NCBI GenBank assembly: GCA_030280995.1
Contig: JASXTE010000005.1
Location: forward strand, 16,160,501 to 16,224,500
Direction of reading: 5' to 3'
Length of the DNA stretch: 64,000 bases
From: Hemileia vastatrix
Lineage: Eukaryota > Basidiomycota > Pucciniomycetes > Pucciniales > Zaghouaniaceae
The position numbers and the translations under genes are program-made. The notes below the pieces were generated by a model, which saw only the letters and a list, made by a program, of their open reading frames with translations, made no database searches and was not told where the DNA came from. Positions 1-53,284 of this stretch are shown here, in pieces; position 1 is the stretch's first letter; each line of letters begins with the position of its first letter.

Positions 1-87
1 GCGAACTCCGTTGAGCTTGAGCCATCTTCCCACACTAGTTTTCCTTCTTCTATAATTTTGTCTTACTTATTAATTTCTCTTTTTATA

Positions 88-1014
88 ATGAACTGTCCTA
101 CTCCCACACCTACGCCTCCACACCCTAAAGCGGATGGGGGAATGATTACGCAACAATTTTCACAAACTTGCACGGCTTGTGAAAGCATGGAATATTTCTG
201 TGTCGAAAGTACGGTGACTCAAGGCCCTTGCCAGAAATGCGAGTTTTGCCGTTGGCGACGAGTGGCGTGCAATGCGTTGACTAAGAACGCAGAGATCGAA
301 AAACGATTCACCAAGACCAAGTTTTGGGTAATCCCTAAAACCAAAGAGGTGGTCGAAGACATTTGGGATGTCTTGATTGAAGATGAACAATCGGTGGGGG
401 AAAATGATAAGGAATTAAATAACGAGATCTCAACCTGGGTAACCCAGGCCACGAGTTCAAAGCGAGGTGTTGAGGAAGAGGTCGACGAGTTGGTGGAGGA
501 AGATGAAGATGAAGTCCCTGTTCCAGGGTGGGCACCCAAGAAACGATGGGTGGTCATCAAAGACAACGAGGAGGAGAGAGAGGCAGAGGTTGAGGTGGCG
601 CCAAGGTTATTTTTAGAGCCTGACCCCATTTTCGAGGTAAGTTTTTAATTGTTATTTTTAAGGATGAAGTTACTGATGAGTTTTGTTTAGACATCGAATA
701 CCCCTGAAGACCCGATTGGGGAGCCTGCGCCGGTTATACCAACTGAGGCAAACCCTCCGGCCACGGATGTAGTTGAAGAACCTGAAGACACCCTGGACCA
801 GGTGTGGTCGAAGAAACCTCGTCAAGGTCGACGAGTAAGGTTCGCCGAAGAGTTAAGTGGGGAGGTCGACACAATTATTGACGCTGCTTCCTTCGACGTG
901 GCAGAGGAGCTCTTGGAGATTGGAGAGGTGGTTCCGGTAGGAGAGGAAGAGGTATTTGAGAAATGCAGGAAGGAGATAAGGGTAGTTTTGGAGAAAATAA
1001 AAAGACTGGTTTGA
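88..1014 (+). CDS. Zn2Cys6 zinc-cluster protein carried antisense in Alpha
   Basis: Two exons, 88-636 and 691-1014, are joined by a 54-bp intron (GTAAGT...TTTAG); both are in the same phase and give about 290 residues. The N-terminal part has cysteines spaced C-X2-C-X6-C-X12-C-X2-C-X6-C (roughly residues 26-60), the spacing of Gal4-type binuclear zinc clusters, with a basic stretch RWRR inside the last loop. The rest is acidic and low in complexity, as in many activator tails. I start at the first ATG in the frame (88). It lies between pol and the expected 3' LTR of Alpha but on the opposite strand, so its intron would survive retrotransposition. Beta has an ORF of the same kind in the same place (14772-15340). 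A role as transcription factor is inferred from the family only. Confidence 0.72.
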
Positions 1015-1957
1015 GAAAAATTAAAAGAAAAAATTTGAAATGAAAAGGAGATGTTAAGAAGTAGAAAAATTTGTATTTTAGTTTTAGTTTATTTTATTTT
1101 ATTTTTTTATTGTAGGTGAATATTATTAATTTTATAAGATTTGGGAGAGAGAGAAAAAGAAAAAAGAAGTTTTAAATAAAAAATTTTAGAATTTGAAAGA
1201 AGAAATTTAAAGAAAGAAAAAAGTTGTTTAATTGAAGGAAATTTTAAGGTTTTAAAAGGAAAATTTTATGTAAGAAAAGAGAGAGAAAAAGAAACGGTTT
1301 GTGATTGAGATGAGTTTGTTAAATTGAGAATTTAATGAATTTTTTTTTTTTTTTTTTTTTTTTTTTAGGAAATTTTAGTTGAAAAGAGAGGAAGAAGAAA
1401 GAAAAGAAAAAACAGAATTTAAAATTTAAAGAGAATTTGAAATGAAGAATTATTTGTTTGAAGAATTATTATAGGGAGATTCAGAGGTTGAAGTTAAGTT
1501 CGAGGTAATGGTTGTGCCGTACAAGATTTGATGGTTCGAAGAAAAGAAAATTTTAAAGAGAGAATAAATTTTTAGAGGAGAAAATTTTAACGAGAATTTT
1601 TAAATTTAAGAAGAATGTATTTTTAGAGAATTGAAAAAGAGAAAAGAAAGAAAATATTTAGAGAGATTTAAGAGTTTTTTTTATTATTTATGTTTATTCT
1701 ATTTATTTTATTTTATTTTATTTTTATTTTGATTGTTTATGTTTATTCTATTTATTTTATTTTATTTTTTATTTTATTTTATTTAATTTTACTTTTGATT
1801 TTACTTTTAGTTGGTTTTTTGAGAAAAAATTATATAGAAGTAGAAGAAAGAAAAAAAGAAAAGAGAGAAAGGAGAAAACAAGGCTAAGAAATTTAAGAGG
1901 TGTTTAGATTTTAAAGAAAGAAAGAAAAAGAAAAGAAAATTTTAAATAAAAGAAATT
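1015..1957. other. Non-coding spacer of Alpha between zinc-cluster ORF and chromodomain
   Basis: No gene is visible. The plus strand is very rich in A and G in the first half, with a run of 27 T at 1340-1366 and repeated TTTTA/TTTAT tracts at 1681-1810. A short hydrophobic frame at 1690-1887 is a by-product of the TTTTA tracts. Confidence 0.6.
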
Positions 1958-4900
1958 TTAAGGTTTTGGTTTTAAAGGATATTTCAAATGAAAAGATTTT
2001 AGGAGTTCAGGGGCCTTAGAAACATTGATGGCTGGTTCCCAGGATGTTTTGTCTGAGTCATTGAGGAAGCCTTCCCATTCCACGAGGTATTGAAGTTTCC
2101 CCTTGCGTATTCTTGAATCAAGGATACGACTTACTTCCCACTCTAGATGATCTTCTACTTCAACCGGTTCCGGAGGGGTTGGTTCTTGCCCGGGTATATT
2201 TCTTGAGCCAGTTCCAGGAGAGATACATGGAAAACAGGGTGAATCGCCTGCCATTTAGGAGGTAACTTGAGTCAAAATGCAGTTTTAGAGACTTCAGAGT
2301 CGATTTCGAATGGTCCCAAGCGCTTTTCAGCCAGTTTCTTTGATGGTCCTGTTGTTCGAATGTTTCGTGCGTCGAGCCATACTTTGTCGCCTGGTTTAAA
2401 GGAAGGAGCAGATTGTCGATGTTTGTCGGCCTGTTCCTTGTATCTTCAAATCGCTGATTCCAAATTTGTTTTAAGTTCTTCTTGAAGTTGTGATATAGTT
2501 CGAAGATAATGTTCCGCAGGATGATTAGTTCCTACATGGATTGAGTTGAATTGAGGATGTCGTTCATAAATGGTTTCAAAGGGAGATTGTTGTGTTGAAG
2601 AATGAGTCAAGTTATTATAAGCAAATTCGGCCAATGGTAACCATGTGGTCCAATCGTCTTGTTGGTAACTGACATACATTCAAAGATATTGTTCGAGGAT
2701 TTGGTTAACTCTTTCTGTTTGACCATCGGTTTCAGGGTGATAAGCCGTGGAGAGGTTCCTCGTGATATTGAGTTGTCAACACAGTTGGGTCCAGAATGTG
2801 GATACAAACAATGAGCCTCTATCTGAAATAATATCATTTGGTAAGCCGTTTTTAGAAAATACATATTCTAGAAACAATTTTGACAAATCTTCTGCTGTAG
2901 CAGTAGTAGTGGTTTTAATAAAAATAGACATTTTTGAAAATCTATCTACTATTACTAATATAGCATCAAAATCATTAGAAATAGGGAGTTGAGAAATGAA
3001 ATCCATCGATAAAGATTCCCAAGGTTTAGAGGGAATATGAAGTTGTTGAAGCAACCCATGCTTCCGGTGATGGGGAGCCTTATTCCTATTACATTCGTAA
3101 CAAGCTTTTATATAGGCCTTGATTTCCCTGGTCATACCTGGCCAGAAGTAATCCCTCGCTATTAACTGGTAGGTTTTATCAACCCCAAAATGACCAGCTA
3201 ATGGAGAATCATGTCGACTGTTGAAAATCCATAATTTTATCTCATTGTTGTTGGGTATGACTACTCTACCTTCGAAGACTAATAGACCTGATTCAATACT
3301 AAATCTTTTGGCCCCTTGCTTCGAGAGTATTTTGTCTTTTAACCCTAAACAATATTCGTCCTTTGACTGAGCTTCGAGGATGTTGGATAGTGGATTTTGA
3401 AAAGATTGAATTGTCATCGAATTAAGTTGATGAGTCGTTAACATTGATTCGTTGAAGATTGATTGCACATTTTCTGGGTTCTTGTCAGCAAATGCGTCCC
3501 CCCGCTGTGGGTAAACGTCGTCCCGACGTGACAAGATATCTGGGACAATGCAGTTTTTTCCTGGGCAATAGGAAATAGAGAGAGAAAATTCAGACAAAAA
3601 TTCAGCCCACCTGGCTTGACGCCTGGTTAATACTTTAGAAGACATGAAGTATTTCAAAGCATTATGATCTGTTAAGATTTGAAAAGGACTATCTAGGCTG
3701 AGAAGGAAAGAACGCCATTTTTTAAGACAATGGATAATAGCTAAAAGCTCTTTGTCATAAATTTCATAATTTAATTCTGCGGCTATGAGTTTGCGTGACT
3801 CAAAAGCAACAGGATGAAACAAATTTGTTATAGGATTTAATTGGGAGATGACCCCTGCAATAGCATAATTGCTCGCATCTGTCTCAACTATTGTTGAGGC
3901 AGAAGGATCAAAATGTCAAAGAATTGGGGCTGTGGTGAAAGCCATTTTTAGTGCTTTGAATTCTTTTCGTGCTGTAGAAGTAAAAACAAAAGGAATGTCT
4001 TTTCTAAGAAGAGAAGTAAGATTGGAAATAGTTTTAGAGTAATCTTTAATAAATCTCCTATAGAAGTTTGCAAAACCTAAAAATCCTTGGAGCGATTTAA
4101 TGTTTTTGGGCTCAGGCCATTCCAGGATTTTCTGGACTTTTTTGTCATCCATGACTAAACCGTAAGTGGACAAGGTAAAACCCAAAAAATTAATTGATTT
4201 GAGGTGGAATTTGCATTTATTATGCTTGGTGTAGAGACCATGATCTCGAAGACGATTTAGGACCTGTCGAACATGATGAATATGTTCATCTAGTGTTTTT
4301 GAGAATATTAAAATATCATCTAAATAGACGACTACAAATTGTTCAACAACATCTTGAAAGATATCATTAACAAAAGTTTGAAAAGTTGAAGGTGCGTTAC
4401 ATAATCCAAAAGGCATAACTAAATATTCAAAACTACCAAATCTAGTGCGCATTGCAGTCAGTGGTTCATGACCTTCTGCAATGCGAATCAGATTGTAAGC
4501 GCCTCTAAGATCAATTTTAGAAAAGAAATTAGCACCATTGAAAAGGGTAAGAAGTAATGACATAGGAGGAACAGGATATGCATTCTTCTTCGTGACTGTG
4601 TTGAGCTTTCTATAGTCAACACACAACCTAAGACTACCGTCTTTCTTTTTTACAAAGAGGACAGAGGAGCCGGTTGGAGATTTACTGGCTCTGATGAAAC
4701 CTTTGGCTACATTCTCTGCAATGTAGTCTTGAAGAACTTGAGATTTGTCCTTCGATAAAGAATAGACAGGACCTGCCGGAGGTACTGGGCCTATTAACTC
4801 TATTTGATGATCGTAGGGTCGATGAGGTGGTAACTTATCGGCTTTACGGATTGAGAAAACATCGAGGAAATAGTGGTAGATTTCCGGTAGAGTTGATTTA

Positions 4901-5613
4901 ATGGCTTCAACGTTGATTTGGTTGTTCTCTTCATCTTCGGGAGAATCTGTCGAGGGGATACCTGTATTGAGAGAGCAGAATTCGATTACTTTGAGGCAAT
5001 TTAAATCCTCTTTGAGTGAAGTCATTGAGCTAGAAGGGTTAGCCAATTGCTCATTTAGAGAAGGATCAGATGCTTGCAAGTCATCTGGCAGAGACTTATC
5101 CTCTAGCAGGACGTTGTCAGGCGGGTTGTTTAACTCCCTATTGACCTGCATTGAAGAATCAGAAATATACTTAGATCGTGGGGTGATCAAACCCTTAGTC
5201 CAATCAATTTTGGGGTTCCAATGCATTAAAAAGTCATGGCCAAGAATGGTATCGTCCATCCTTGGGGCGTCCAAGACTGATAATTCCCACTCGAAGGGGG
5301 GAAAGTTCAGAAAGTTGAAAACCCATAAAACTTTCTTACTTACTCAATATTTGGGTTCCTCTGATTCGACCAAATAGATTGGAGTTCGATCGATATCTGT
5401 AAATGTTAGTTGAAGCTTCTTGGAAAAAGATAAACTAACAAAAGAAATTGAAGCTCCAGAGTCTATAAGACAACTGAAGGGGATATCCTCCTTAAAAAGA
5501 ATGAATCTCAAGCAGTTTAAGGCAACTCCAGTCCTTAAGACATGGAGGTTCTGTGCACTGGGAGAGATAAGATAGTTTTCTTTGCACACAAGTAAACTAT
5601 CTACTAGTTTTTT
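1958..5613 (-). pseudogene. pol: Alpha pol: protease, RT, RNase H, integrase, chromodomain (broken)
   Basis: The frame is entered by -1 frameshift at 5607-5613. In order on the minus strand: aspartic protease with LIDSGA near 5470; a linker; reverse transcriptase with VVYLDDILIF near 4325 (YLDD catalytic motif) and FGLCNAPSTF; RNase H; integrase zinc finger, then core motifs (FPGMTREI, MDFISQL, ISDRGS); integrase C-terminal region; and a chromodomain at about 2170-1980 (EVSRILDSRI...YLVEWEGF). Stops at 5344, 3916, 2776, 2680, 2446 and 2272 are all TGA at places where the family would have Arg (CGA). A 1-nt loss near 2180 puts the chromodomain in another frame. A chromodomain tail of this kind directs integration to marked chromatin in other chromoviruses. 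Confidence 0.9.
5571..5613 (-). promoter_or_regulatory. -1 ribosomal frameshift signal at the Alpha gag-pol junction
   Basis: On the minus strand the last codons of gag read TCA AAA AAC TAG. A AAA AAC (5613-5607) is a classical X XXY YYZ slippery heptamer directly before the gag stop. A -1 shift there enters exactly the pol frame. Five nucleotides later starts a perfect 8-bp inverted repeat, GATAGTTT (5601-5594) and AAACTATC (5578-5571), with a 15-nt loop. The spacer length and the stem are what known frameshift sites need. Confidence 0.8.
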
Positions 5614-6764
5614 GACTTCGAACTAGTACCTTCTCTTTCCTTCAACTTTACACAGTCTTCCAACTTGTGCTTACCCCCACAATACATACATAACCCATTA
5701 TCTGCTAGTCTCTTCCTCTCAGATTCTTTAAGTTCCCCTTTAGGATCCAGTACTTTGCTGATATCGCCTGGGGTCGAGCCTTTTGGTCGAGGTTTATCCT
5801 TTCCCTTATTGGGTTTGGATTGAGTTGAGGAGGATTGATTTGGCCATGGGTGTGAAGAAGGTCCCGATTTAAAATTTAGGCCTTGAGATTTGTTGGCATA
5901 TCGACGATGTTGAAGTCGTCCTTGATAAACGCCGTCAAGTTCGAGGGTTTGATCCATTAAATCCGTTAAAGTAGTCATTATCTGACCGTGAAGATTTAAT
6001 TGATCCAGAATCCTCGAAGGAAGTCCTTTCTTGAAATGAAACTTAAGGGCAGCATCATTCCAACCTACTCAATTTTGAAGTGCTCTGAAGTTCGAGATAT
6101 ATTCAGAGGCTTTACCATTATCACTCATGCGAAGAAAATCAAGTTCAATTTCTGCGTTGTCCGTTTCATTAGGGTCCCCAAACAACGTAAAAAGTTGGTC
6201 TTCGAACTTTTCCCAATTATTGATAAGTAAGTGGGTTTCTGTCAAAGAAAGCATGAGTAGATAAGGTTCGAACCATCTTGCTTCTTTCCCGGCTAGGAAT
6301 GAAGAAGCGTAAACAACCTTTGATCGGTTGCTGTTAAAGGTTCGAGGGTCATTATGGAACAGTAGCTTGCAGGTTTGCAAGAAGGGTCGCAATCTGTTGG
6401 GGTGATCTCTGTCGAATTTGTCAGGAGATTTCATAGAAGGAGTTTTGAACTTAGATCCCTCTGAAGACGTTGGATTTGAAAGGGTTTTCATGAAAAGTCT
6501 CATGAAATCTTCCAGAGAGTTAGATGGTCCAGGTTCTGAGGATTGGCCAGAAGGGTGATTGGCAGGGGCGGATGGTGCCTCGCGCATTGTATCCTCTCCT
6601 TCTTCTTCATCACTAGAATCCTCAAAATCTTGTGGGATGTCTTCTACAGATTGAACTGAATGTTGCAGTTCCCTAAGGTCGAGTGGTTCCAAAGAGTGAG
6701 TGCAGGAAACAGACCTTGTGGCTGTTGGCCTGCCTCTAGCGCGAGCTCTAGTAGTAGCGCCCGT
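5604..6764 (-). pseudogene. gag: Alpha gag, main part (capsid and nucleocapsid)
   Basis: This is the body of gag; the first nine codons are at 16601-16575 beyond Beta. Together they give 396 codons including the stop. The middle holds a Ty3-type capsid region (LFHNDPRTFNSNRSKV then ARWFEPYL). Near the C-terminus is a zinc knuckle CMYCGGKHKLEDC, with one residue fewer than usual before the His (C-X2-C-X3-H-X4-C). An in-frame TGA at 6071-6069 interrupts it where the neighbouring reading suggests Arg. The TAG stop at 5606-5604 directly follows the slippery heptamer. Confidence 0.85.
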
Positions 6765-6846
6765 TGTGGTAGCCTAAAGTTTAGTATGGCACCTAAGTAC
6801 GTAAATGGAGTTATTACGGCGTGCAAGATTGGCGTTATTATTTTTT

Positions 6847-6860
6847 TATATATAAAAGGG
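6847..6860 (+). promoter_or_regulatory. TATA-like core promoter element in Beta LTR
   Basis: TATATAAAAGGG is the best TATA box in the LTR and is kept in the 3' LTR and, on the other strand with changes, in the solo LTR. Transcription start was not determined. Confidence 0.45.
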
Positions 6861-7231
6861 TTTTATTTAATTTATTTGAGTTTTAAATATGAAGAAATTA
6901 GTCAAGAGCGAATGCCTACACAAAATTAATTTATTTTACGGAGAAAACTTATTTTTTCGGTCTGAAAAGTTTATAAGTATCAAGTCGAGTCACTAAAGAA
7001 CCTTGGGAAATTTTTTCCAGAATTTTTACTATTTTTCTTATATTTTTAAATGAATTTTAAAGATTTATAGAAATATTTACGTATTCAGAAATTACTTATT
7101 GTTGATGAATTTTCACGGGGTAATTAGAGCTGCGCAGACTACGAAAATTAGTTTGGAATGTAAAGGGGAATCGGCTCTATCATGTGTAATTTTTCTAGAT
7201 TTTTTATTATAGTTTTAAAGGTTCTAATTAA

Positions 7232-7300
7232 GTCCGGAAGTCCGGACGGACTCCGTTTGGACTCCGTACGGGCTCCGGATTGACTCTGGGAGAGCTCTGG
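7232..7300 (+). repeat. 11-bp phased CTCCG (CGGAG) array in Beta 5' LTR
   Basis: Units start at 7240, 7251, 7262, 7273, 7284 and 7295, exactly 11 bp apart, with consensus GGACTCCGTAC degrading to CTCTG at the right; one further GTCCG at 7232 is out of register. There are about ten CGG or CCG triplets between 7232 and 7280. The same array is at 15932-16000. The solo LTR has an expanded version (37899-38003). Confidence 0.85.
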
Positions 7301-7872
7301 AGGGGAAAACTTAGGCACGTGACTAGGAATACTTAAGCGCCTCTCAAACTCGAAATTGAAGGGGGGGATACATCATACAGCTTAATCTTTAACCACCACG
7401 GACTCATTTTTTATTACTCAACAAATTAAATAAATTTGTAATACCCTTATAACTTTATATTTTATATATAACATTTTAGAAATACTACTCAAAAATTTAA
7501 ATCACACTTCATACAGGGTATCTTTAGAAAGGTCTTCACCACTGGGACTTGATTATTGCTGTCTCATAAAAATTCAAATTATTATAAAAACATAAAAGTC
7601 AATCTTTTCAGATCTTTCACTGGTACACCTTAATTGTTGTTATCAGTATTTCTTTCTCAACAGCCACAATCATTGAATCTCAATAAGCGTTAAATATTTT
7701 AGAGTTTCATTATTTTTTTATCAATCAGATCCAAGTAGACTGGTTAGCTTAGTGATTTAAAATTCCCATTTTGTTATTTTTATTGGAAGGACGGGGTTTT
7801 CAGCTAAATCCACACATCTCCTCCGTATTCTGCTTACAGCAAGGCGACTGTAAGAGTTTACCTTACCATAGT

Positions 7873-7889
7873 TGGCGCCTAACGTGGGG
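7873..7889 (+). other. Beta primer-binding site
   Basis: TGGCGCCTAACGTGGGG starts two bases (GT) after the LTR end. The leading TGG pairs with the CCA end of a tRNA. I cannot say which tRNA. Confidence 0.75.
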
Positions 7890-8047
7890 TTCGATTTCTC
7901 TAGCTTTCTTTAAAAGACTTACTTGGATCAAGAACGTTCTTAGTTTGCAAGAGGCTTATTTTCTGGAACTCTAATTGGATTTTTGTTATTGGCCTGCAAG
8001 AGGCTTGTTATTTTATCGATTGTTAACACTTTTCATTACTTATTGGG

Positions 8048-8371
8048 ATGTCTTCTTCTGCTGTTGCTTCTGGATCTTCTAACCCTCTTACTCCCTCAGT
8101 TAGAATTGTTTCTTGGGATGGCCCAAAGTTTGATGGGGAGGAGGTTAAATGGTTCATTAGCAGGTATGAAGCTGCTGCTGCTGTTGATGGTGCTTCTCAT
8201 GTGGATATGGTGAAGCAAGTTAGGTTTTTTATTGCTGATAGGGAGGTGGAAAAAGAGGTTATTGCTATGCAGGCATTTAAGGACAAGGATTGGGTTAAGC
8301 TTTCTAAAGCTATGGTTGATAGATGGGGTGTTAGGTTTACTATGATGGACCTCAATAAAATTGTTGGATAA
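8048..8371 (+). pseudogene. gag: Beta gag fragment
   Basis: An ATG frame of 107 residues opens 160 bp after the primer site. It begins Ser/Ala-rich and contains WFISRYEAAAAVDG and WVKLSKAMVDRWG, as in the N-terminal capsid part of basidiomycete Gypsy Gag proteins. It stops at 8369-8371, far too early: no zinc knuckle and no protease follow, and the next frame resumes at once with a pol linker. An internal deletion near 8360-8380 is the simplest reading. Confidence 0.7.
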
Positions 8372-11300
8372 GGGAAGCAAAGGTGTTGGAAAATCTGTTT
8401 ATAAATTAGACGAGGGAAAGGAGAAAAAAGTAAAATTTAAAAATGAAATAAAATATTTTTCTAATTTTTCTTATTCCGATTCTGACGATGAAGAAGATTT
8501 ATTTGATGAAATTTTTAATGGCAAATCAAAAGTAAATGTTTTACCTCAAGCTTATTTAGATGTGGACGCAGCCAAATATAAGAAAGTAGCAAATAAAGTT
8601 CGACCTATTAATGAACCGCTACCTGCCGAATTAAATCCACCCTTGAGAAGACCAAGGTTATCAAGAGATCCTTATGAAAGTCCCTTGGTAAAGAATCCGC
8701 CTGAATTATCTGAGACATCAAGAATCACTTTTGAGAGACTGGGTGTTGTTAATTTTGGACCTGATGGTTGGTTGTCTGGAGAAGAGAAGAAGTTGTTGTT
8801 GGATGTGATGGTCAAGTGAGAGAAGGCCATTGCTTTTGTAGAAGAGGAGAGGGGTGTGTTGAAGCATTCCTATGGGGAGCCTTACAAGATTCCTGTGGTA
8901 TGTCATGAACTGTGGCAGCAGAAACCGATTCCTATTCCGGCTGCATTAAAAGAAGCCTATATTGAAGTTGTCAGAGAACGGATACGCACTGGACTGTATG
9001 AGCAATCAACATCAAGTTATTCTAGTCCGGTATTTTGTATCAAGAAACCGAATGGCAAGCTTAGAGTTGTTCATGATCAAAGGGAATTAAATAGGGTTAC
9101 AATAAAGGATGCTGGGATACCACCTAGTGCTGAGCAGTTTGTTGAAGCATTTGCAGGGAGAGTGTGTTATGGTTTGGGAGATATTATGGGTGGATATGAT
9201 GAAAGAGAGTTACATCCAGACTCAAGGCCTCTCACTACATTTGATACGCCACTTGGACGTTTACAGTTAAAAAGATTACCTCAAGGAGCAACAAATTCAG
9301 TTGCAGTTTATCAAGCTCAGATGGCTTGGATCCTTCAAGACGAAATTCCACAATATGCTGGAATCTTTATAGATGATGGAGGAATTAAGGGACCAACAAC
9401 CGACTATGATAACCAGGTGTTGGAAGAGAATCCCGGGATACGCAAATTCATTTGGGAGTTTGCAATTACATTAGAAAGAATCTTGTTTTGAATTGAAGAG
9501 GCTGGATTAACTATTTCAGATTCAAAATTTTCATGTTGTGTGCCAGCCTTAGAAATATTAGGCCATGTGGTATGTAGAGAGGGTAGGATTATGTCCAAAA
9601 ATAAAGTTAACAAAATTCAGTCCTGGCCAAGACCCAAGAATACTACCGAAGTTAGAGGGTTTTTAGGCGTTTGAGTATATGTTAGAATGTTTATCAAGGA
9701 CTTTTCTTCATTGGCAGCTCCATTGAGACGGTTAACGAGAAAGGATGCAGACTGGGAGTGGGATGAAGAGTGTGAGAAGGCGTTTGTGAAGTTGAAGGAG
9801 GTTGTAGGGAAGGATTTAGTCCTGCACAAGTTGGATTATGGAAAATATGCTGGTAGAATTTATTTAGCAGTTGATTCAAGTCAGGTTGCAGCTAGGGTGG
9901 TTTTGTCTCAGATGGATAAAGCTGGTTACATCAGGCCAGTTAGGTATGAATCTGTAGTATTTACTGAGGTCAAATCAAGATATTCACAACCAAAATTGGA
10001 ATTATGTGGTGTGGCAAAAATACTGAAGAAACTTCAGCATATTTTGTGGGGCAACATTTTGAGTTGCAAGTGGATGCGAAATCGTTAATACAGATGATTA
10101 ATTCCCCAAGTTTACCAAACGCACCCATGACAAGATGGGTAGCTTTTATTCAACATTTTTCGTTTGATTTAGTTCATAAGCCTGGCAAAACTTTTACTAT
10201 GCCAGATGGTTTGTCAAGGAGACCACCCACTGAAGAAGATTCAGACTTAGAAGAGTTCGATGAAGATATACCTATTATCAAAGCCAGCACTAAAGGAGCT
10301 GAAGACTTTCCATACCTCCCCCATGAGGTTAAACTGGCAGGACTATTGTGTTTAGATTATGGTGATGATGACCTCCACCAAGAGGATAAACTGGAAAATA
10401 GTTTTTATGTTAATAAAGGTGTTGGAAAAGGTGTAGATAAATTTGGTAGAAAGGAGGTAGAAGAAGATGTGGTGTATGTAGAGGAAGATGGATTGGTAGT
10501 GTGGGATAGTAGTAAGTTAAGGAATGGTGTATATGTTGGAGAATTAGAGAATTTAAATAAAAAGGTGGACAAAGAGAAAGAGGTATTTTTGAATACGGTT
10601 TACGAAGGATCCAAAGGTTCAGAAGAAAAACGACGACATAGCTCAATTAAAGATTTATTTAGGGGTCAACAATTATTGGCTCATTCATGTGCAGGTGATA
10701 TTGGTGATAGAGAAGTCCCTATTGATGTTATATTAATCGATTTTTAAGATGAAGTCTGGGGTCAGACTGGTTTTTATTTTTTGTTAGTCAAATATTTGTT
10801 GACTTTAGAGAGGCCAGAAGATTGTGAAGACGATGAATGGGTGGCTATCAAGAGGAAGTCATCTACGTTTTACCTATCTGGTCAACGTTTAATGAGGAGA
10901 AGGTATCCAAATCCTCAAGTAGTTATAACTCAAGAGAAGGGGCAAGAATTAGTTTTGAAATCACTGCATGAAGATCTCGGGCATAGAGGCGTTGGAGAAA
11001 CGTTTAGAAGAATTTCTGATTGATTTTGGTGGCCTGGCATGCAGATGGCTGTTAAACAGTGGGTTCAGTCATGTGAAGAATGTCAAAGACGAAGTTATTA
11101 AAGGCCAAAAGAACCTGGACACGCGACCGGTGAATATACGCTCTTTGGGAGAGTTAGTTTTGATGCCGTTCATATAAAAGAGGGACGGTATAAATATTTA
11201 ATTGTGGCCAGAGATGATTTATCTGGTTGGGTAGAGGTAGCGCCTCTTATTAATTTAACTTCCAAAAATGTGTCAGAATTTTTTTTGAATAATTGGGTAT

Positions 11301-12052
11301 ATAGGTATGGGGTGATGAAGTTGGTAACGGTAGATGGAGGTCCTGAATTTGGGACAGAGTTTAAAGAGGCCGTATTAAAAGTTGGATCAAAGGTTAGGGT
11401 AGCAGCCCCATATTATCCTGAAGCTGAAGGCATGGTGGAAAGAGGGCATCAAGTTATTAAGGATGCTTTAGTTAAAATGTGTGGGACAAGTGCCGAAAAG
11501 TGGAGGCACTATTTACCTTTAGTTTTATTTGCTGATCGAATCACTGCCAAAAGGACGACCGGATTTTCACCTTATGAACTTGTTTTTGGACAGAAAGCAA
11601 TTTTACTGGTTGATTTAGAAGCTGAATCATATCTTGGAGTTGACTGGGACACTGTCAAAACTACTGATGAATTATTGTGTGCAAGAATGATGCAGCTAGA
11701 AAAGAAAGAAGAATATTTAGAAAAGGCATATTCGCGGATGATGAAGATCCGAAATCAATCAGTCAGATATTGGGATGAGCGGTTGGCACATTGATTAAGG
11801 AAACCTTTGAACCCAGGTGATATGGTCCTGGTTTATAATAGAAGTCTAGAGAGTCAATGGGGAAAGATGTTTGCAGATAGGTGGAATGGACCATATAAAA
11901 TCAAGGAGCAAGTTTCTGGTGGTTCATATGTGCTAGAAGAGTTGGATGGAGTAGTATTAAAGAAGAGGGTAGCGGCCGATCAAGTGAAACGGTTCTATCC
12001 TAGAGGCACAAGGAGTGCCGAAGTGAACCTCTGCAATGAGGATAAACTATGA
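8361..12052 (+). pseudogene. pol: Beta pol: RT, RNase H, integrase (broken, no protease)
   Basis: In order: an acidic linker (8361-8819); reverse transcriptase (8856-9600) with SPVFCIKKPNGKLRVVHD and a catalytic box FIDD near 9365 instead of the common YxDD; RNase H (9690-10230) with LAVDSSQ, ELCGVAK and LQVDAK; a long acidic tether; the integrase zinc finger (HEDLGHRG near 10965, CEECQRR near 11080); and the integrase core with VDGGPEF near 11335 and EAEGMVERGHQ near 11425, then the GPY-type tail (WNGPYKI near 11885). There is no chromodomain. Breaks: TGA at 8817, 9489, 9672, 11021 and 11792, TAA at 10745 and 11096, a frameshift near 10060. Four of the TGAs (8817, 9489, 11021, 11792) fit CGA changed to TGA. 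Stretches between breaks are well preserved, which fits recent decay. Confidence 0.88.
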
Positions 12053-12284
12053 CATTTATGAAATTATATGGATACCTCCGCAATGAGGATAAACTATGAA
12101 ATTTCTTAAATTTTATGGAACCTCCGCAATGAGGATAAACTATGACAATTATCAAATTTTATTAACCTCTGCAATGAGGATAAACTATGATATCTACAAA
12201 ATTTTATGGATACCTCCGCAATGAGGATAAACTATGATATCAACGAAAATTTATGATGACCTCCGCAACGAGGATAAACTATCT
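12027..12284 (+). repeat. Six tandem 45-47-bp repeats at the end of Beta pol
   Basis: Units start at 12027, 12074, 12120, 12165, 12212 and 12259. Each begins with a conserved 26-bp block, ACCTCYGCAATGAGGATAAA and six more bases, followed by an AT-rich spacer that varies. The first unit contains the pol stop codon, so the last residues of pol (LCNEDKL) are encoded by the repeat. Function unknown. Confidence 0.85.
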
Positions 12285-12602
12285 TTTTTTATCAAAAATA
12301 CTTTACTGTCGTTACACTGCATATGGGCGACGAAGTTGTGATGAAACTTAACAAAATGCAAGAAAACCTTCTTTGAAATTTTCAAAATTTAAAATTCTTA
12401 AAATATGGGTGAAGATAGTGTTGGAAAATTTTAAAAATTTATTGGAAGAAGTGTTCACAGGGGAACCTTCTTAATTTAATATTGGCAAGTGTGGGGGTAA
12501 TTGATGGGCTGGCTGCTCTATACACAATTACCCCATAAGGTTCGTTTCCAAAATTTTCCCTGTTTCTAGTTGAATCCTGGCTTTGTCTTTTAATTATAGG
12601 AA

Positions 12603-14067
12603 GTCCACTAAGACTATAAACTGGAACAAATCAAGAGACACCGCTCTCAACGCCGGATTCAAGATTTATTTTATTTTATTTTGTTTTTGATTTTTTTATG
12701 TTAGATTTTGATTTCTTTTCTTTAATATATATTATGAATTATTGTAAAGGTGATGCTCACTGGTGGTCTCTAATCATTTTTATAAATTGGAGGGAGCCCA
12801 CCCAGTGATCATCATTATAAAATTATCTTCTAAAAACTTTCATTTATTTTCTTTTCTTTTAAATTTCTCAAATTGTGTAACCACATCAAGTTGCACTTGG
12901 ATGTGGGTATTATGTCGAGGGTACGGCTCATCAAATGGCCGGGGGGCATCTTTTAAAATTTTTATTTTGAAATTTTTTATTATTATTACTTTTTTTATTT
13001 TTCTTTTCACATTCGTTTATATTTCTTTAAAAATTAAATTTTAACTTTTATTTCAAAACTATCTTTTTTAAAATCTTTTATTTTAAATTTAAAAAAAAAA
13101 TTAAAATTAAAAATAATAAAAAAAAAAAATATTATTAAAGAAAAAAAAAAAAATTAAATTAAAAAATAAATAAAAATAAAATAAAAATAAAAAAATAAAA
13201 TAAAAATAAAATAAAATAATAAAAAAATAAAAAAATAAATTAATTAATTCAAAATTATTATTATATTTCTTAGTTTATTTTTCAGTCTTCATTCTTTTTA
13301 GTTTATTCATTTAGTTTAGACAGGAAACAGGGTCTAGGGGAACTCAATACCTATGGGATTTTACTTCAAGATAGCTGTTAGTCCTCCAAGACTTTAAACT
13401 GGCTACTGTTCAAGACGCTCTTTAAGGTTTTTTATACATATTTTGGATCTGTTAGTCCTCTAAGACTTTAAACTGGCTACTGTTCAAGATGTTCTTTAAG
13501 GTTTTTTTATATACAAATTTTGGAGCTGTTAGTCCTCCAAGACTTTAAACTGGCTAATTTTCAAGACTATCGTTAAAATTTTTTTTATTGGATTTGTTAG
13601 GTCCACCAAGACCTTAAACTGGGCTGTTATCAAGCTGTTGGGTCCACCATGACCTTATACTGGATTTCTTATCAATCAAATGTTTGGTCCACCATGACTT
13701 TAAACTGGTAGTTCATTCATTGTTTAGTCCACTATGACTTTAAACTGGAAAATTAATATCTGCAGGATAATTCAACATTCATTGGTCCACTATGACCTTA
13801 TACTGGATTACTTGTCGATCAAATGTTTGGTGCACTATGACATTAAACTGGATTATCAAATTTATTGAATCTTTGGTCAAGCCTAGGCCTTATTTAGGAA
13901 TTTATCAAGTTATTTATGCACCTAAACGATCTTTGGTCCACCAAGACCAAAAACTGGCAATCAATTATATGTTTGGTCCACAAAGACTTTAAATTGGAAT
14001 GTCAATCTTGTTTGGATAACTCAATTTAATCTTTTAATTTATCACTGTCCACTAAGACTCTAAACTG
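12603..14067 (+). repeat. Thirteen dispersed copies of a 22-bp motif in the Beta 3' region
   Basis: Copies start at 12603, 13381, 13455, 13532, 13601, 13642, 13687, 13727, 13785, 13830, 13936, 13976 and 14047. The core reads GTCCACYAWGACYTTAAACT plus GG. Spacing is 40-110 bp except for the isolated first copy. The first three in the cluster lie in longer near-identical blocks of about 75 bp. The region has no coding frame. It sits between pol and the antisense zinc-cluster gene. Confidence 0.8.
13041..13255. repeat. A/T low-complexity tract in Beta
   Basis: Almost only A and T, mainly AAAATAAAATAAAA on the plus strand. No gene. It separates the two parts of the repeat-rich 3' region. Confidence 0.8.
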
Positions 14068-14771
14068 CTTATTCAATCGTTTCTGGAATTGGGTGCTGAT
14101 AAGCTTTAGGAGGTTAAAATTTTAGGTGGTGATGATGCTAAGGAAAGCATAATGGTTAATTAGGTGAAATTTGGGGCGCTTTAACATGGTCTAAAGTTAA
14201 TATTATTATTGGAAGCCTGGCAAAAGTATTTTATGGGTTTGCTGTATAGCAAAGTTTGAAAATTGTGATGAAGTAATCAGAAGTTAGGATGGTAGTTGGA
14301 TTTTAGGGAATGATTTTTTTAGTGCCTCCGTGTTAGGCCATTTTTGGTGTGAAGCTTGGAGAACCTTATGGCGAGATTGGAATCATAGAATTCGGCTCAG
14401 TGGGGGGCCCTATGAGGTTGGAATCAGGAGTATTCGGCTCATAGGAAGATCCACTCTCTCAATGCTGTGACAAGAAGGAAGACTGGTATATGGGAGTCTG
14501 AAGGGAGTCAAACCTTGCTCTCAGTAGTGGAATCATCACAAGATTTATTATTTATTATTTTATGTTAAGCCAGAGAAGAAAGAAAACAACATTTATGTTG
14601 AAAGTTAAAGAAGACCAAGAAGAAACAAAATTTTATCAAGTTATACTGTTAGAAAAGATAATTTCTTTGAAATTGCTCAACATCATTATCAAAGCTTTGC
14701 ATTAAAATTCTTCTTTTAATGAGGTCTTCATGGTTATTAGCTGGAGTTTCTTTAAAATAGGCCAGCATTTT
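14068..14771. other. Non-coding part of Beta 3' region
   Basis: No intact gene. A short direct repeat, GGAATCA followed by ATTCGGCTCA, occurs at 14379-14399 and 14421-14441. On the minus strand from 14771 to 14649 the frame of the zinc-cluster gene continues past its TGA to a TAA, so the original protein may have been about 40 residues longer. Confidence 0.5.
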
Positions 14772-15340
14772 TCATTTCAACTCATTAGTAAAGTCAAGAA
14801 AAAGATAGTGATGAAAATTTGGATAATGATTGATATAGTCCGTCTTCACTCTACCAACATCATCAGTGTTGTTTATTTCGACAGCTAGAAGTTCAAATAT
14901 GTTATTAAGTCATAGGTTTAGTCAATTTTGATTAAAAGTTTTTTTAGTAAGATAAATAGGGTCTTACATTTAGAGCCAGGAAACATAGTCTCAGCAAAGT
15001 TGGTTGGGGGCACTGGTGTTATAGGATTAGGATCTTGTGAAGGAAAAATTAGGCCAGGTTCCGCTGATGAAGATTGAAATTTTGAAGCTGTTTTTGATCT
15101 TATTCGTTTTAAGAAGACAGGAATTTTTGATTGCTTTTTAGAAGTTGAGGGATCAGGGAGAGCTGCTGGCCCTAAATATACGTTTGTTTTAGAAGGAACT
15201 ATTGGCCGGTTACATTTGACTTTTTTCACATGGCATAAGTCGCAAGCTGTCCTGCCAGGAAGATTAGGGTTGGACATTAAACAAGTTACCTGGTATCGAG
15301 CGCAGAGTTCACATGGAGCAACAAGCTCTTTGAAAGACAT
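14772..15340 (-). CDS. Zn2Cys6 zinc-cluster protein carried antisense in Beta
   Basis: ATG at 15340-15338. Exon 1 runs to 14968; an 83-bp intron follows (14967-14885, GTAAG...TTCTAG); exon 2 ends at TGA 14774-14772, giving about 161 residues. The N-terminus has a perfect C-X2-C-X6-C-X12-C-X2-C-X6-C cluster (residues about 10-44), with basic KKVKCN at its end as in Gal4-type DNA-binding domains. Without the intron the frame would end after a Lys/Ile-rich tail encoded by intron sequence. The terminal TGA may be a mutated CGA, since the same frame stays open to 14649. It is convergent with pol and starts 123 bp inside the 3' LTR, so that LTR or the short gap could hold its promoter. Spacing of the cluster is identical to the Alpha ORF at 88-1014. 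Confidence 0.75.
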
Positions 15341-15453
15341 ATTGATGAAAATGAATTTTATAGTTAATTAAAGAAGATGGTGGTTGAAGGTTAAAGATGA
15401 ATATTGTGTTCGACCACTTATGCAAAGTTTTAAGAATGGGGACATTCTCAATT

Positions 15454-15463
15454 GGAGGGAGGA
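15454..15463 (+). other. Beta polypurine tract
   Basis: GGAGGGAGGA lies directly before the 3' LTR, where plus-strand DNA synthesis of LTR elements is primed. Confidence 0.85.
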
Positions 15464-16570
15464 TGTGGTAGCCTAAAGTTTAGTATGGCACCTAAGTACG
15501 TAAATGGAGTTATTACGGCGTGCAAGATTGGCGTTATTATTTTTTTATATATAAAAGGGATTTATTTAATTTATTTGAGTTTTAAATATGAAGAAATCAG
15601 TCAAGAGCGAACGCCTACACGAAATTAATTTATTTTACGGAGAAAACTTATTTTTACGGTCTGAAAAGTTTTTAAGTATCAAGTCAAGTCACTCAAGAAC
15701 CTTGGGAAATTTTTTCCAGAATTTTTACTATTTTTCTTAAATTTTTAAATGAATTTTAAAGATTTTATAGAAATATTTACGTATTCAGAAATTACTTATC
15801 TTTGATGAATTTTCACGGGGTAATTAGAGCTGCGCAGACTACGAAAATTAGTTTGGAATGTAAAGGGGAATCGGCTCTATCATGTGTAATTTTTCTAGAT
15901 TTTTTATTATAGTTTTAAAGGTTCTAATTAAGTCCGGAAGTCCGGACGGACTCCGTTTGGACTCCGTACGGGCTCCAGATTGACTCTGGGAGAGCTCTGG
16001 AGGGGAAAACTTAGGCACGTGACTAGGAATACTTAAGCGCCTCTCAAACTCGAAATTGAAGGGGGGGATACATCATACAGCTTAATCTTTAACCACCACG
16101 GTCTCATTTTTTATTACTCAACAAATTAAATAAATTTGTAATACCCTTATAACTTTATATTTTATATATAACATTTTAGAAATACTACTCAACAATTTAA
16201 ATCACACTTCATACAGGGTATCTTTAGAAAGGTCTTCACCACTGGGACTTGATTATTGCTGTCTCATAAAAATTCAAATTATTATAAAAACATAAAAGTC
16301 AATCTTTTCAGATCTTTCACTGGTACACCTTAATTGTTGTTATCAGTATTTCTTTCTCAACAGCCACAATCATTGAATCTCAATAAGCGTTAAATATTTT
16401 AGAGTTTCATTATTTTTTTATCAATCAGATCCAAGTAGACTGGTTAGCTTAGTGATTTAAAATTCCCATTTTGTTATTTTTATTGGAAGGACGGGGGTTT
16501 CAGCTAAATCCACACATCTCCTCCGGATTCTGCTTACAGCAAGGCGACTGTAAGAGTTTACCTTACCATA
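15464..16570 (+). repeat. Beta 3' LTR
   Basis: 1107 bp, same ends as the 5' LTR and about 98% identical by eye. It carries the TATA-like box and the 11-bp phased CTCCG array (15932-16000). CCGT follows at 16571. Confidence 0.95.
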
Positions 16571-16574
16571 CCGT

Positions 16575-16601
16575 AGGAGGAGTGCGTTGAACAGGTGCCA
16601 T
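16575..16601 (-). pseudogene. gag: First codons of Alpha gag, cut off by Beta
   Basis: ATG at 16601-16599 starts a frame of nine codons that runs to the Beta target site and continues in the same frame at 6764 after Beta and one copy of CCGT are removed. The next residues are basic and Thr/Arg-rich (GATTRARARGRP). This is the true start of the gag protein. Confidence 0.82.
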
Positions 16602-16657
16602 TTAAAATTTTAAAAACACCTAAAAGGACGTAGTAGTGCAAAGAATGAGAACTACGG

Positions 16658-16671
16658 AGAATTAAATTATA
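16658..16671 (-). other. Alpha primer-binding site, self-complementary to the LTR
   Basis: On the minus strand TATAATTTAATTCT starts one base after the LTR end. It is the exact reverse complement of AGAATTAAATTATA inside the LTR (17011-16998), which lies about 30 bases after a TATA box, where the RNA should start. No TGG is present, so a tRNA 3' end is not the likely primer. This is the arrangement of self-priming elements such as Tf1 and sushi. Confidence 0.7.
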
Positions 16672-16672
16672 C

Positions 16673-17445
16673 TGTCACCGGATGACCTACGCACAAGGTT
16701 GAGGATGTTCCTGAAAGTGAGATGAGGGATTTAGAAACTTCTTCGAAGCACAGAGGAATGATTCGAGGAAATGGTTCTAAGATCACTCGAAGTAAGAGCT
16801 ACAGGTTTGAGGTTTGTTTGAGAAGAATTATAAACTAGTTTCAAAGGTAATTGGAATTCTTAAGATCTCACGAAGGGTTGGAAACTCAATAATCAAAGAT
16901 TTAGGATTTAGAAATGAATATTGAGAAAATAAAAGAAAGATACAATAACAATGATTTTGACTTTAAAGATTTACCACTATTAATGTAAATACAATTTTAT
17001 AATTTAATTCTAAGGAATATCGAACCAAATACCCAACCCCTTTTATATCCTTTGTTCCTCCTCGCATTGACTTCCCTTCCATTGCACCATTCCGATTCCA
17101 TTGACCATTACTAACATACACTTAGACCCCCCTGGCTAAATACCCGTCCATGCTCAATTTACCCCTTTTTAATTAATTAACATAACTTTAATGAAAAACT
17201 ACTACTGTACTATTTCGTTGAACCTAGTGCTGTGCGTCGCTTATTTAAAAGGAATAAGGCACCCTATTGGGAAGTTGACTAATTTAGATTTAGATTTTAG
17301 GCTAGTGCAGTTGAATAGTAAGTACACAAAGGGGAATCGCAGTTGCTATGGAGAATTGCTTTCTGTGCTTCGAGTATAGATTTAGGACTCGATATTATTG
17401 ATTTAATGAGCTGCTTTTGCCTCGAGTGTCACGTGGCGCGTGACA
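16673..17445 (-). repeat. Alpha 5' LTR
   Basis: 773 bp. On the minus strand it starts TGTCACGCGCC and ends CCGGTGACA, with TG...CA ends and TGTCAC/GTGACA as terminal inverted repeat. It is followed by the primer site and, 72 bases on, by the gag ATG. Its partner is left of the window, so the ends rest on terminal repeats, primer site and the resumption of gamma-1 at 17446. Confidence 0.75.
17037..17050 (-). promoter_or_regulatory. TATA box of Alpha LTR
   Basis: The minus strand reads GGATATAAAAGGGG. A start 30-35 bases on would fall at about 17011, the first base of the sequence that matches the primer site. Confidence 0.6.
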
Positions 17446-17847
17446 AACACTCAGTGGGACTCCCTTCAGGCCCAACAACAGCAACAAGCACCTCAGGCAG
17501 GTCCTTCCAGGCCCCATCAATTCAACCCAACCCCTCCTCATCCCTACCAAGAAGGAAGAAAAGGAAAAGCAATCAACTCCAAATTTGGCCAAAGCCATGT
17601 TGAAGTCCTCCATTGAATCTCAAGCTCCTTTTCTTGTTACTTATTCAGTTCCTTCAGGTAAATCTAGATGGGGAGATGATACCTTGAGACCAGTAGATGC
17701 TGGCTCTAGTAGGAATATTACTCAATATTCTAATGTAACTACTCCTTTGGTATTAATTTCTACTTCAATGATTAAACCTGATATGGCCATTATAGATGAA
17801 ACAGTTGATCCTGAAGTTTATGAGAGTCTGGAAAATTACTATGTTTC

Positions 17848-18659
17848 TGTCAAGCGGTCCTTTTGTCTAGAAGATTTATTCGAAGGTCCTACAAGGATTC
17901 CAAGTGGTTTAATGGTCTTTCAAAAAGCAAGTACATATTTTCTTAATCTTTTTCTGATTATTTTACTCAAATTTTAAGAGGTTTCTTTAAATATTATTAT
18001 AATTTATATTGTTAGAATCACAGTATTGTAATCACTAATATTATAAAGAATAGTAATAGATTTGTTTTAACTAATGTGTTATAAAAATTGGTAAAGTAAA
18101 TAAGGAATGAATCAAAAGGACAAAAAGGAAAGGCATTTTATAGGCAAAATGTGAGAAAATAACACACGGAATTAACATCCCCTAGTACAAGAGTTTGAGA
18201 AGAAAAAACTTAAATAAAGAGAGTATGTGAAATAATAAGAGTAAGACTAAATAGTGCCTAAATAAAATTATTTATTTTATTTGAAATAAAACTCTGAACC
18301 CTTTGGTCTGTCACATTTTAGTGCAAGAACATTTGATTTAAAATATTGAATCAATAAAATCTAAATAAAGGAATTTGAAAAAGTATTTTTCTTTTTATAA
18401 TTTTATATTTTTTAATACTAATTTTTTTCCCATCTCATCTGTATTATTGAGCACGGTGTTTGGGAGTAAAAATATATATGGGACAGGTACTTATTTTTAT
18501 TAATTATCTACATTACTTAGTGTACTTAGCTAGTTAGTTGTAAGTAATAAATAAGTAGTTAATAAATAATTAATTATTAATAAGGATTTAAAAGGCGTGG
18601 CTTCAACTCAGTAAGATAATTAATTATTTTACTGGGTAAGTCTAGTAGCCTGGCTGACA
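17848..18659 (-). repeat. Solo gamma LTR in Gamma-1 gag
   Basis: 812 bp. On the minus strand it starts TGTCAGCCAGGC and ends GACCGCTTGACA. The 5-bp duplication GTTTC lies at 17843-17847 and 18660-18664. Removing the insert restores the gag reading seen in gamma-3 (codons for YVSL..RNT). Canonical TG...CA ends. It formed by recombination between two LTRs of a full insertion. Confidence 0.92.
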
Positions 18660-21600
18660 GTTTCCCTATTGAGAAATACTCCAGATGTAGCTACTATTAA
18701 AGATGAATATTTGAGAGATATTATTACAAAAAAAATCATATAATGAATAACCTTCAATTGAATCAAAAATATAATAGTTTGTTAGCTGAACAAGGTTACC
18801 AATCAGTGAGATTTGAATTTCAGAGGGTTTCTAATGATTTATATAATTACAAAGTAACTCATGAGAAGAAAGTTGCTTTGTGGCAAAATATGAAGAATGA
18901 TTTGTATGAGATACAAGACACTGTGTCTATCTGCTTACAGGAACTAGAGGGACATAAGCTAAACTTGAAAAGATTAACTGACCATTACTCAACTCTTAAA
19001 ATCAAGAATCAATTATCTTTTGCAACTATCAATGAGGCATTATCCAGTATTCCAAGAGTGAAAAAAAAACTAAAAAACATTGAAGAACAGATGAACTCAT
19101 TGTTAAATGATTAAAAGTATTATTCCACTTGTTTGAAAGAACCTGTTGCACAAGATACTCCAATTGTACCTGAGCCTTGTTCATCAAAAGTAAAATTAAT
19201 AATAGAAATGCCTGTAGATATTCCTAAGTTTCCATCAAAAATTGATGATGCACCTTTTTCATCTACAGAAGGGTTAAAAAATGATATTACCGCTCATTTA
19301 GAGAAATTACATCTTTTTCTTACACAGAAACAAGTTTGTAACAAGGAAATTACCTCATATCAAAAGAATTAGCCAAAAATTGACCAATACCCTACATTTG
19401 ATGGAGCTCTTCCTCTGATTGGCAGCAGTTTATTTGAATAATTGATAACCTTAAGAATTCTTAAAAACTTCCAGATGAAAGAATTGTGTCTAATTTGACT
19501 TCTTTATTTTCCAATTTTGCCTTGATGTGGTATGAATCTTTCATTTTAGATAAAAATGACTACTCCTGGGAGGATTGGAAAAAATTGATTAAAGCACAGT
19601 TTGGTGGTTCCAAGTTTAGGTTAGCCCAACAAAGGAAGTATGGGAAGCTAGATATAGCTCTTCTTCTACAGAAAAACCTATTTAGTTCCTGATAAAACTT
19701 GTAAAGATCTTGAGAGAAATGGACCCAAATATGGATTTTGAATTATGGAAGTACAGGATCCTCTATAAATTGCCTATGTCTTTGAGAGACTTAATATTTT
19801 CTAGGACTGAGTTCTCAAGAGAAGCTTTTTATTTTATCAATACTTGAATTGAGATCCTTTTAAATAAAAAGTATGATTCTAGAATGTTCATTCCTAGATC
19901 TTCATTGGAGAAAAAATCTAATTACCAGCAGAAACCTCCTGAAAAAGTTGGTAAAACTTCTGCCCCTGTTGCACCAAAAAAGTATGTAACAAAAACTTGC
20001 TTTAAACTCAGAAAGCCTTGGCATAAAGGCCATTTTTGTGACAAAAAATGAATCTTGTTGAAAAAACAGAGGAATATGCTGATGACACAATTGAAATGGA
20101 TGATACTTCAAGTGATTGTGCCAGCAATATTTCTTATAAATTTCACCATGAAATATTAATGCTGGAAGAAGATATTCATTATTTCATAACTATAGACATT
20201 TTGAATGATGATTTATCCACAGTAGAGGATTCTGAGATCATAATAAATCTTGAAGAAAGCTCAATAATTATTGCTTCTCTCAAGGCACAAGCCTTGATTA
20301 ATAGAAAAAAAATTGAGGTTGTTTTGGATTCTGGAGCTGGAGGAAGTGTAGTATCCAAAAAAGAACTTGCTCTAGTGGATCAGGATTATAAATCCATACT
20401 TATGCCTATAATTTCTGAAAATTGGAGAGGTTATGGCTCTGTTTTGTCCCCCATTGGTAAATACAAAGGGAAAGTATTTTTCAAATATAACCATGGATTT
20501 GTAAGAGCTATGTGTGACTTTGCAGTTATGAAAAATGATAACTTAAGTAGTTGGTTCTTTGTGGGAGATGACATTTTAACCAAATATGGAATTAAATTGA
20601 ATCTCTCAAACCAATGCTTCACCATGGGGTTGAATGGGAAGAGAAAATTTAAAATTTCTTACTCCAAAAAATTATTAACACCAGGATTGAACAAATGTCA
20701 TTCTGTGGGTCAATATAAAGGAAGATCTACAAAAGAAATGCCTGCACTTCTGTCTGAAATTGACACAGCTTCTTTTGGAGAACAACTTTCTGGTGAGGAA
20801 AAGGATTCCATCATTCAGTTGATAAAGTCTTTTCCTATGGCCTTTCCTCATGGTTCACATGAATTATGATTGGCAAAAGAAGAAATGAAGCTCTCATTAT
20901 CTTTCCCATTGACTGAAATACCACCTATTTTAATGAAGAAGCCTTATGCTGCTTCTAACACAAAGAGAAAAGATATTGAAGAAAATATATCAACCCTTTT
21001 AAAAATGAATATTTTTGAAAAGGTAGTTGAAACACCTAGAAATTGTGTTATCTCACCTGTGTTAGTTTCTAATGAGAAAGCCAAAGACATGTTATGTGTT
21101 GATTAAAGAGCATTTAATAATTATACTGTAGATGATATCTATCCTCTACCCAGAATTAGCTCTATACATGCTTCCTTACAAGGTGATATATATATCAGCT
21201 GTTTAGATGGTAATATAGGATATCACCAGGTACCTGTTAAGAAGAATTCCCAGAATTTTCTAATGATTTTTACTCATAAGGGTATTTATAAGTATGTTAG
21301 GATGCCATTTGTCCCTGAAAATGCCACTTCAGTTTTTCAAAAGGTTATGGATAACACATTCAATCAAGAAATATTTGAAGGATGGCTGATGGTTTACATT
21401 GATCATATCATCATATTCTTTAAAAAATTTGAGGACCATCTTAATCACCTGTGTAAAGTGTTACATACAATGGATGAGAGAAATATGACACTTGCTTTGA
21501 AAAAATGAAAATTTGATTTTTATTCATTGAAAGTGCTTGGTCATGTTGTCTCAGGTTTACAGATATGTGTTGAACAGAACAAAGTGGTAGACATACAACA

Positions 21601-21772
21601 GGTAAACGCTCCTACTACAGTGAGAGAGCTGCAAAGTTTTTTGGTAATGTGTGAATACTATAGACAATATATTAATAACTATCAGGTCATAGAACTACCA
21701 TTAACCCAGTTAACTAGGAAAGATGTTGCTTATTTCTGTAATAGTGAAAGAAAAAGTGCTTTTGACATTATC

Positions 21773-34005: not shown

Positions 34006-34007
34006 AA

Positions 34008-36840: not shown

Positions 36841-36863
36841 CATTTTTTTTATTGTTTTTTTTA

Positions 36864-36874
36864 GAGTGAGGGAG
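36864..36874 (+). other. Gamma-2 polypurine tract
   Basis: GAGTGAGGGAG lies directly before TGTCAGCC. The same tract precedes the 3' LTRs of gamma-1 (43537-43547) and gamma-3 (58711-58721). Confidence 0.9.
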
Positions 36875-53153: not shown

Positions 53154-53284
53154 TCCAAACAGCAACAGCACCAAGTACCTCAGGCAGGTCCTTCAAGAAC
53201 AAATCAGTTCAATCCAACACCTCCTCATCCCTATCAAGGGGGAAGAAGGAGAAAGAACAACCACATCCAAGTCTTCCCCAAGCC

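Follow-up and report, generated by a model that had tools for sequence, protein, structure and literature searches.

Antisense, intron-bearing zinc-cluster genes in two nested Gypsy retrotransposons of Hemileia vastatrix

Why should two Gypsy retrotransposons with different types of pol, one inserted in the other, each carry an additional gene on the strand opposite to pol, and what might such a gene do for its element? This question is raised by a 64-kb stretch (hereafter the window) on the 39.4-Mb contig C260 of the 747.6-Mb Hemileia vastatrix assembly. The first 17.4 kb of the window hold a nested Gypsy pair: Alpha on the minus strand and, inserted inside it, Beta on the plus strand. Because Beta inserted within Alpha, the Alpha 5' LTR (16672–17445, minus strand) is cut off from the rest of its element; it is 96.4% identical to the other Alpha LTR, the 3' LTR, which lies just beyond the window edge (coordinates -794 to -20, equivalent to L069 5206–5980). 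Comparison of the Beta LTRs placed the 5' LTR at 6765–7870 and the 3' LTR at 15464–16570 (both plus strand, 98.5% identical), and the insertion is flanked on either side by the 4-bp repeat CCGT. The ends of the Beta LTRs appear to be TG..TA, and a solo Beta LTR at 37307–38464 has ACAG flanking both ends.

The pol regions set the two elements apart. On the minus strand, a domain scan of Alpha identified a reverse transcriptase piece (3919–5343; RVT_1, 126.6 bits), a piece with RNase H and integrase (2779–3915) and a chromodomain piece (1961–2254; Chromo, 50.8 bits), that is, a Gypsy pol with a chromodomain, as in chromoviruses. The Beta pol region (8820–11791, plus strand), which has broken frames, contains reverse transcriptase (RVT_1), RNase H and integrase, the rve match being a little below the cut-off (31.2 vs 32.6 bits); no chromodomain was found in the six Beta pieces scanned, the final ~200 bases of pol having been read by eye only. 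Scans of three copies (window Alpha, L070 and window Beta) did not find a gag knuckle of the form C-X2-C-X4-H-X4-C. Between Beta pol and the Beta antisense gene lie two repeat arrays (12027–12282 and 12602–14070), with a 47-bp unit in 5.5 copies and a 25-mer in 13 dispersed copies. Plant Retand elements likewise have tandem repeats between pol and the antisense gene, according to the accessible text of PMC11963269.

The first-pass annotation of the window had placed an antisense gene at 88–1014 in Alpha and another at 14772–15340 in Beta, and we found both at these places, on the strand opposite to pol, between pol and the 3' LTR and oriented toward pol. The Alpha gene (plus strand) consists of exon 1 (88–636, 183 codons), a predicted intron (637–690) and, from reading of the frame and a search with the exon alone, exon 2 including the stop (691–1014). 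The Beta gene (minus strand) has the same layout, with exon 1 at 14968–15340 (124 codons plus one base), a predicted intron at 14885–14967 and exon 2 including the stop at 14772–14884, its frame read by eye. The distance from gene start to 3' LTR is 107 bp in Alpha and 123 bp in Beta. Zn2Cys6 proteins have cysteine spacings in the range C-X2-C-X6-C-X5..12-C-X2-C-X6..8-C, and close to the start of both antisense genes a motif scan of six frames recovered the spacing claimed at first, C-X2-C-X6-C-X12-C-X2-C-X6-C, in Alpha (169–270, plus strand) and Beta (15212–15313, minus strand) alike. These two were the sole matches to a loosened form of the motif in all six frames of the 64 kb, and 20 sequences simulated from the window with a first-order Markov model contained none.

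Both genes recur throughout the assembly. When exon 1 was used as a protein query, all 150 scored matches were full length for Alpha (of 6834 first-look candidates; 126 of the 150 without a stop by hand count) and for Beta (of 8554 candidates; 146 of 150 without a stop, again by hand count), and all 150 scored matches to a query with Alpha exon 2 alone (5549 candidates) spanned no fewer than 106 of its 107 residues, although match sets obtained with protein queries are biased toward intact copies. Other copies were picked by the non-coding leader, of which 11 for Alpha and 9 for Beta were fetched among the 40 matches listed for each. The antisense gene was present in all 20 (11/11 and 9/9), with exon 1 free of stops and frameshifts in 5/11 Alpha and 6/9 Beta copies. 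All six cysteines were kept in 10/11 leader-chosen and 29/29 protein-chosen Alpha copies, and in 7/9 leader-chosen and 28/29 protein-chosen Beta copies. Five further Alpha copies, chosen by chromodomain and fetched among 40 matches listed, all had the gene at the expected place; exon 1 lacked a stop in two of them, one of which was unaligned over the first ten codons, and four kept the six cysteines. With very many copies genome-wide and 25 of 25 copies selected by flanking DNA rather than protein carrying the gene, the earlier view that the genes belong to the elements holds: they are standing parts of both elements, present in most family copies. A recent capture of cargo was rejected, since the gene is shared between copies and between subfamilies.

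The alignments also support the one short intron that had been proposed for each gene. The predicted intron begins with GT in 41/41 Alpha and 39/39 Beta rows and ends with AG in 41/41 Alpha and 36/39 Beta rows, one of the remaining Beta rows reading TAT and two being gapped there. If unspliced, the Alpha frame hits a stop within the intron. Among 38 Beta copies, 51 of the 53 indels in the gene are intronic, with 2 in exon 1 and 0 in exon 2; for Alpha, 40 copies show 34 indels within the 54-nt intron vs 2 and 9 in the exons (549 and 321 bp), row-end effects being excluded from the exon 2 counts. No intron indels were seen among the 11 leader-chosen Alpha copies.

Is the encoded protein maintained? 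The rows compared were chosen by protein similarity in 29/40 Alpha and 29/38 Beta cases and by leader in the other 20, and the five chromodomain-chosen rows stayed outside the selection tests; choice by protein similarity lowers dN, while near-fixed differences between groups are less affected. Synonymous distances divide the Alpha exon 1 sequences into four groups, between which dS is 0.17–0.33, dN 0.027–0.036 and dN/dS 0.10–0.17; within the three larger groups dN/dS is 0.22–0.41. The near-fixed differences among these three groups (counted without L015 and L034, the two rows of a fourth group) are 7:0, 30:4 and 24:3 (synonymous:replacement), against an expectation by opportunity of 21% synonymous; the 30:4 refers to the two best-separated large groups, and none of the near-fixed replacements among the three lies in the zinc domain. 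Among exon 1 variants that at least four of the 41 rows share, synonymous and other changes stand at 56:25, vs 36:77 among singletons (p = 3e-7), and the corresponding counts for exon 2 are 18:13 vs 25:56 (p = 0.0099); the Alpha leader group on its own gave no significant difference in the variant test (p = 0.48). For Beta, the variant tests were not significant with all 39 rows (p = 0.15–0.2) and gave p = 0.0085 with the 10 leader-group rows. Judged from these substitution patterns, the Alpha antisense protein is under purifying selection. The original observation on the antisense genes is right, and for Alpha the case is firmer than was claimed at first. A chance open frame in Alpha was rejected, as the motif is absent from the simulations and both dN/dS and the near-fixed differences show constraint.

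Four Alpha copies, of which three were protein-chosen, give ratios of 0.25–0.54 for pol at dS 0.05–0.09, 0.09–0.18 for exon 1 at dS 0.13–0.35, and 0.21–0.67 for exon 2. The higher dS of exon 1 than of pol implies that the 3' part of Alpha has been diverging for longer, or faster, than pol. The stretch from -794 to 1950, comprising LTR, antisense gene and spacer, diverges more than most of pol at 1950–6764 when the window copy is compared with L070 and L071, and this 3' part looks as if it had been swapped between lineages.

Which strand is read? Within Alpha exon 1, the antisense frame is overlapped by a sense frame that has the same third positions, scores almost equally (28:6 vs 30:4) and is open in 27/41 rows; together with the lack of significance in the all-row Beta tests, this would suit an antisense frame that is never translated, the conserved product being an antisense RNA or the overlapping sense frame. 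We regard this as very improbable: the sense frame is open in 1/41 rows of Alpha exon 2 and 0/39 rows of Beta exon 1, whereas the antisense frame is open in 32/41 and 35/39, respectively. These differences in openness, and the location of the cysteine motif and the splice signals on the antisense strand, favour the antisense strand as coding.

What kind of protein would be made? Both genes encode a probable DNA-binding zinc protein, and the profile search that had been suggested succeeded for one of the two. Against Pfam Zn_clus (PF00172), Beta scores 24.7 bits, above the gathering score of 21, with a best stretch that covers only profile positions 1–15 of 39 and aligns with Beta C4 to C6; Alpha does not reach the gathering score and gave no match up to E 10. 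Zn_clus is matched, at E up to 1, by all 16 members of an alignment, A1. The second half of Beta aligns with the first half of PPR1 (E 3.3e-4) and, less well, with those of GAL4 and LAC9 (weak, E 1.5–5.8). Beta exon 1 has no cysteine beyond C6, so that in a cluster with two zincs the N-terminal half would have to act as the second half of GAL4. In net charge, the halves are -2 then +2 in Alpha and 0 then +2 in Beta, placing the basic half second, the reverse of GAL4 and PPR1. Seven ordinary clusters from the assembly were compared, and in 7/7 the basic half comes first; eight loci were fetched, these seven motifs being the ones that could be read in a single frame, and all seven sit on 22–59 kb contigs that may be contamination. 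Alpha and Beta resemble the GAL4/PPR1-type Zn2Cys6 domain in having six cysteines in two C-X2-C-X6-C halves, and differ from it in the reversed halves, the 12-residue linker, the small size of the protein and its location in a retrotransposon. The position of the basic half suggests a permuted zinc cluster, with its halves in swapped order relative to GAL4, and shared ancestry of the two genes. Given the pseudo-symmetry of the GAL4 cluster, a permuted protein could still hold two zincs.

As to the ordinary genes, seven of the eight fetched Zn_clus matches lie on C472, C511, C313, C446, C632, C698 and C520 (22–59 kb, GC 36–53%), which may be contamination from other fungi. A gene with Zn_clus and Fungal_trans is located on a 33-Mb contig of the assembly.

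The two elements had been called unrelated, and their pol types do differ; the antisense proteins nevertheless look related, albeit through a weak alignment. It spans 42 ungapped columns (E 8e-4; profile probability 24%), with cysteines making up most of the identities. Independent acquisition, the likeness being due to convergence, would account for so low a profile probability and for the introns, which lie at different distances from the last cysteine and in different phases. It would leave to coincidence the ungapped match and the shared place, strand, 12-residue linker, second-placed basic half and single intron; we consider convergence a real but lesser possibility, and a common origin of the Alpha and Beta genes likely. 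Protein searches with Beta exon 1, Alpha exon 1 and alignment A1 gave no homologues elsewhere at E <= 0.001, in a collection that may hold few fungi, so that rarity does not follow, and viral contigs gave no match.

Place, strand, the six cysteines, the intron-like structure and presence in copies are read directly from the DNA, as is, for Alpha, purifying selection. The reading that we prefer, with moderate confidence, is that an accessory gene, antisense and spliced once, is a standing part of either element and would make a small DNA-binding zinc-cluster protein regulating the element itself. Antisense transcription would begin within U3 of the 3' LTR, or close to it, and proceed inward. 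The intron would never be spliced from the genomic RNA, which is the opposite strand, and the gene would for that reason survive every round of copying with its intron retained. The zinc-cluster protein would then enter the nucleus, bind sites within the element (for Beta, possibly the CCG arrays in its LTRs) and tune sense transcription, akin to the antisense gene HBZ in HTLV-1, which has spliced forms. HBZ is driven from the 3' LTR and encodes a regulatory, DNA-binding-type protein, according to the accessible text of PMC10186651; it differs in belonging to a retrovirus, in being a bZIP rather than a zinc cluster, and in that its function has been tested whereas that of Alpha and Beta is inferred.

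Candidate sites for such a protein are present in one of the elements. Zinc-cluster proteins bind CCG/CGG-type triplets, and a repeat and triplet scan revealed 11-bp CCG/CGG arrays in the Beta 5' LTR (7241–7286) and 3' LTR (15941–15986). In three Beta LTRs, everted and inverted CCG/CGG pairs reach the observed number in 0 to 3 of 300 shuffles, and CTCCG, a word picked after the arrays had been noticed, occurs 14 times in Beta vs a mean of 4.5. No paired CCG/CGG was found in five Alpha LTRs, so candidate sites, and the support they lend to self-regulation, are confined to Beta. The length of the array varies among Beta LTRs and is greatest in the solo LTR (near 37880–38010).

The same protein might instead serve retrotransposition after transcription, by binding element DNA or chromatin, in nuclear entry or in the choice of integration site. 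The Beta arrays better fit binding to a promoter, and Alpha already has a chromodomain, which is usually regarded as a targeting module. Place and conservation would fit any function for the element, and roles of this kind have been proposed for plant antisense genes (PMC7264820, accessible text); we judge this alternative rather unlikely. We find it improbable that the protein is a tool or cargo acting mainly on host genes. A fungal-type zinc cluster may bind host promoters, but selection along the Alpha subfamilies and the very large size of the family are most simply explained if the protein serves the element, and limited searches did not find a close host homologue.

How far is this arrangement known? 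Antisense extra genes had been noted at first as known from plant Gypsy elements, with no fungal zinc-cluster cargo described. A fungal Gypsy example is already on record, brtn (Zhao et al. 2011), which lies antisense between pol and the 3' LTR in Boty-like chromoviruses of Botrytis cinerea, so that only the zinc-cluster content looks new. We know brtn from parts of papers that cite it (PMC7264820, PMC8365987, PMC4227169, PMC5987419); its place corresponds to that in Alpha and Beta, and, like Alpha, Boty is reported to have a CHROMO domain, in its gag-pol. In the accessible text of PMC7264820 and PMC11963269, the plant genes (gene23 of maize Grande, those of rice RIRE2 and PvRetro13, and TRP28 of Retand) share place and strand with those of Alpha and Beta and occur in most copies of a family. 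Transcription of the Grande gene is driven by an upstream promoter of its own, and the protein localizes to the nucleus; TRP28 is predicted to bind DNA. They differ in belonging to other protein families, and the word 'intron' was not found in either source, as far as its text was accessible. A zinc-cluster gene in an LTR retrotransposon was not found in the literature searched, which covered few subscription papers and others in part; 'antisense' has no occurrence in two surveys of fungal LTR elements (PMC2864245, PMC3248453), and both 'antisense' and 'zinc' are absent from a paper on rust transposable elements (PMC12210899). The antisense accessory gene is thus a known kind, of which an intron-bearing zinc-cluster version with reversed halves, in two Gypsy elements, looks new.

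More tentatively, the zinc cluster with swapped halves may be a gene family of retrotransposons, passed by descent or exchange between the chromovirus and other Gypsy lineages, spliced in antisense and controlling its own LTRs, a fungal counterpart of HBZ. LTR retrotransposons are usually viewed as dependent on host factors for their regulation; these elements may bring along their own regulator. If a conserved DNA-binding protein is encoded by very many copies in a fungal genome of this large size, the element would possess a control circuit acting in trans, with scattered binding sites through which host genes could be rewired. Antisense placement would show how a retrotransposon can keep an intron, and the fungal zinc cluster would be seen to tolerate swapped halves.

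Lastly, some minor features of the window and its relatives may be mentioned. Rfam gave no match at gathering score in 1–17500. A separate repeat family is represented by up to four related copies (17561–24000, 32403–37200, 53249–58709 and 61320–64000), from which the six-cysteine motif is absent. The window also contains a G-rich array with 24/33-bp spacing (46890–47339), and a tandem array with a 7-bp period (L071 1–985) adjoins an Alpha copy on C121.
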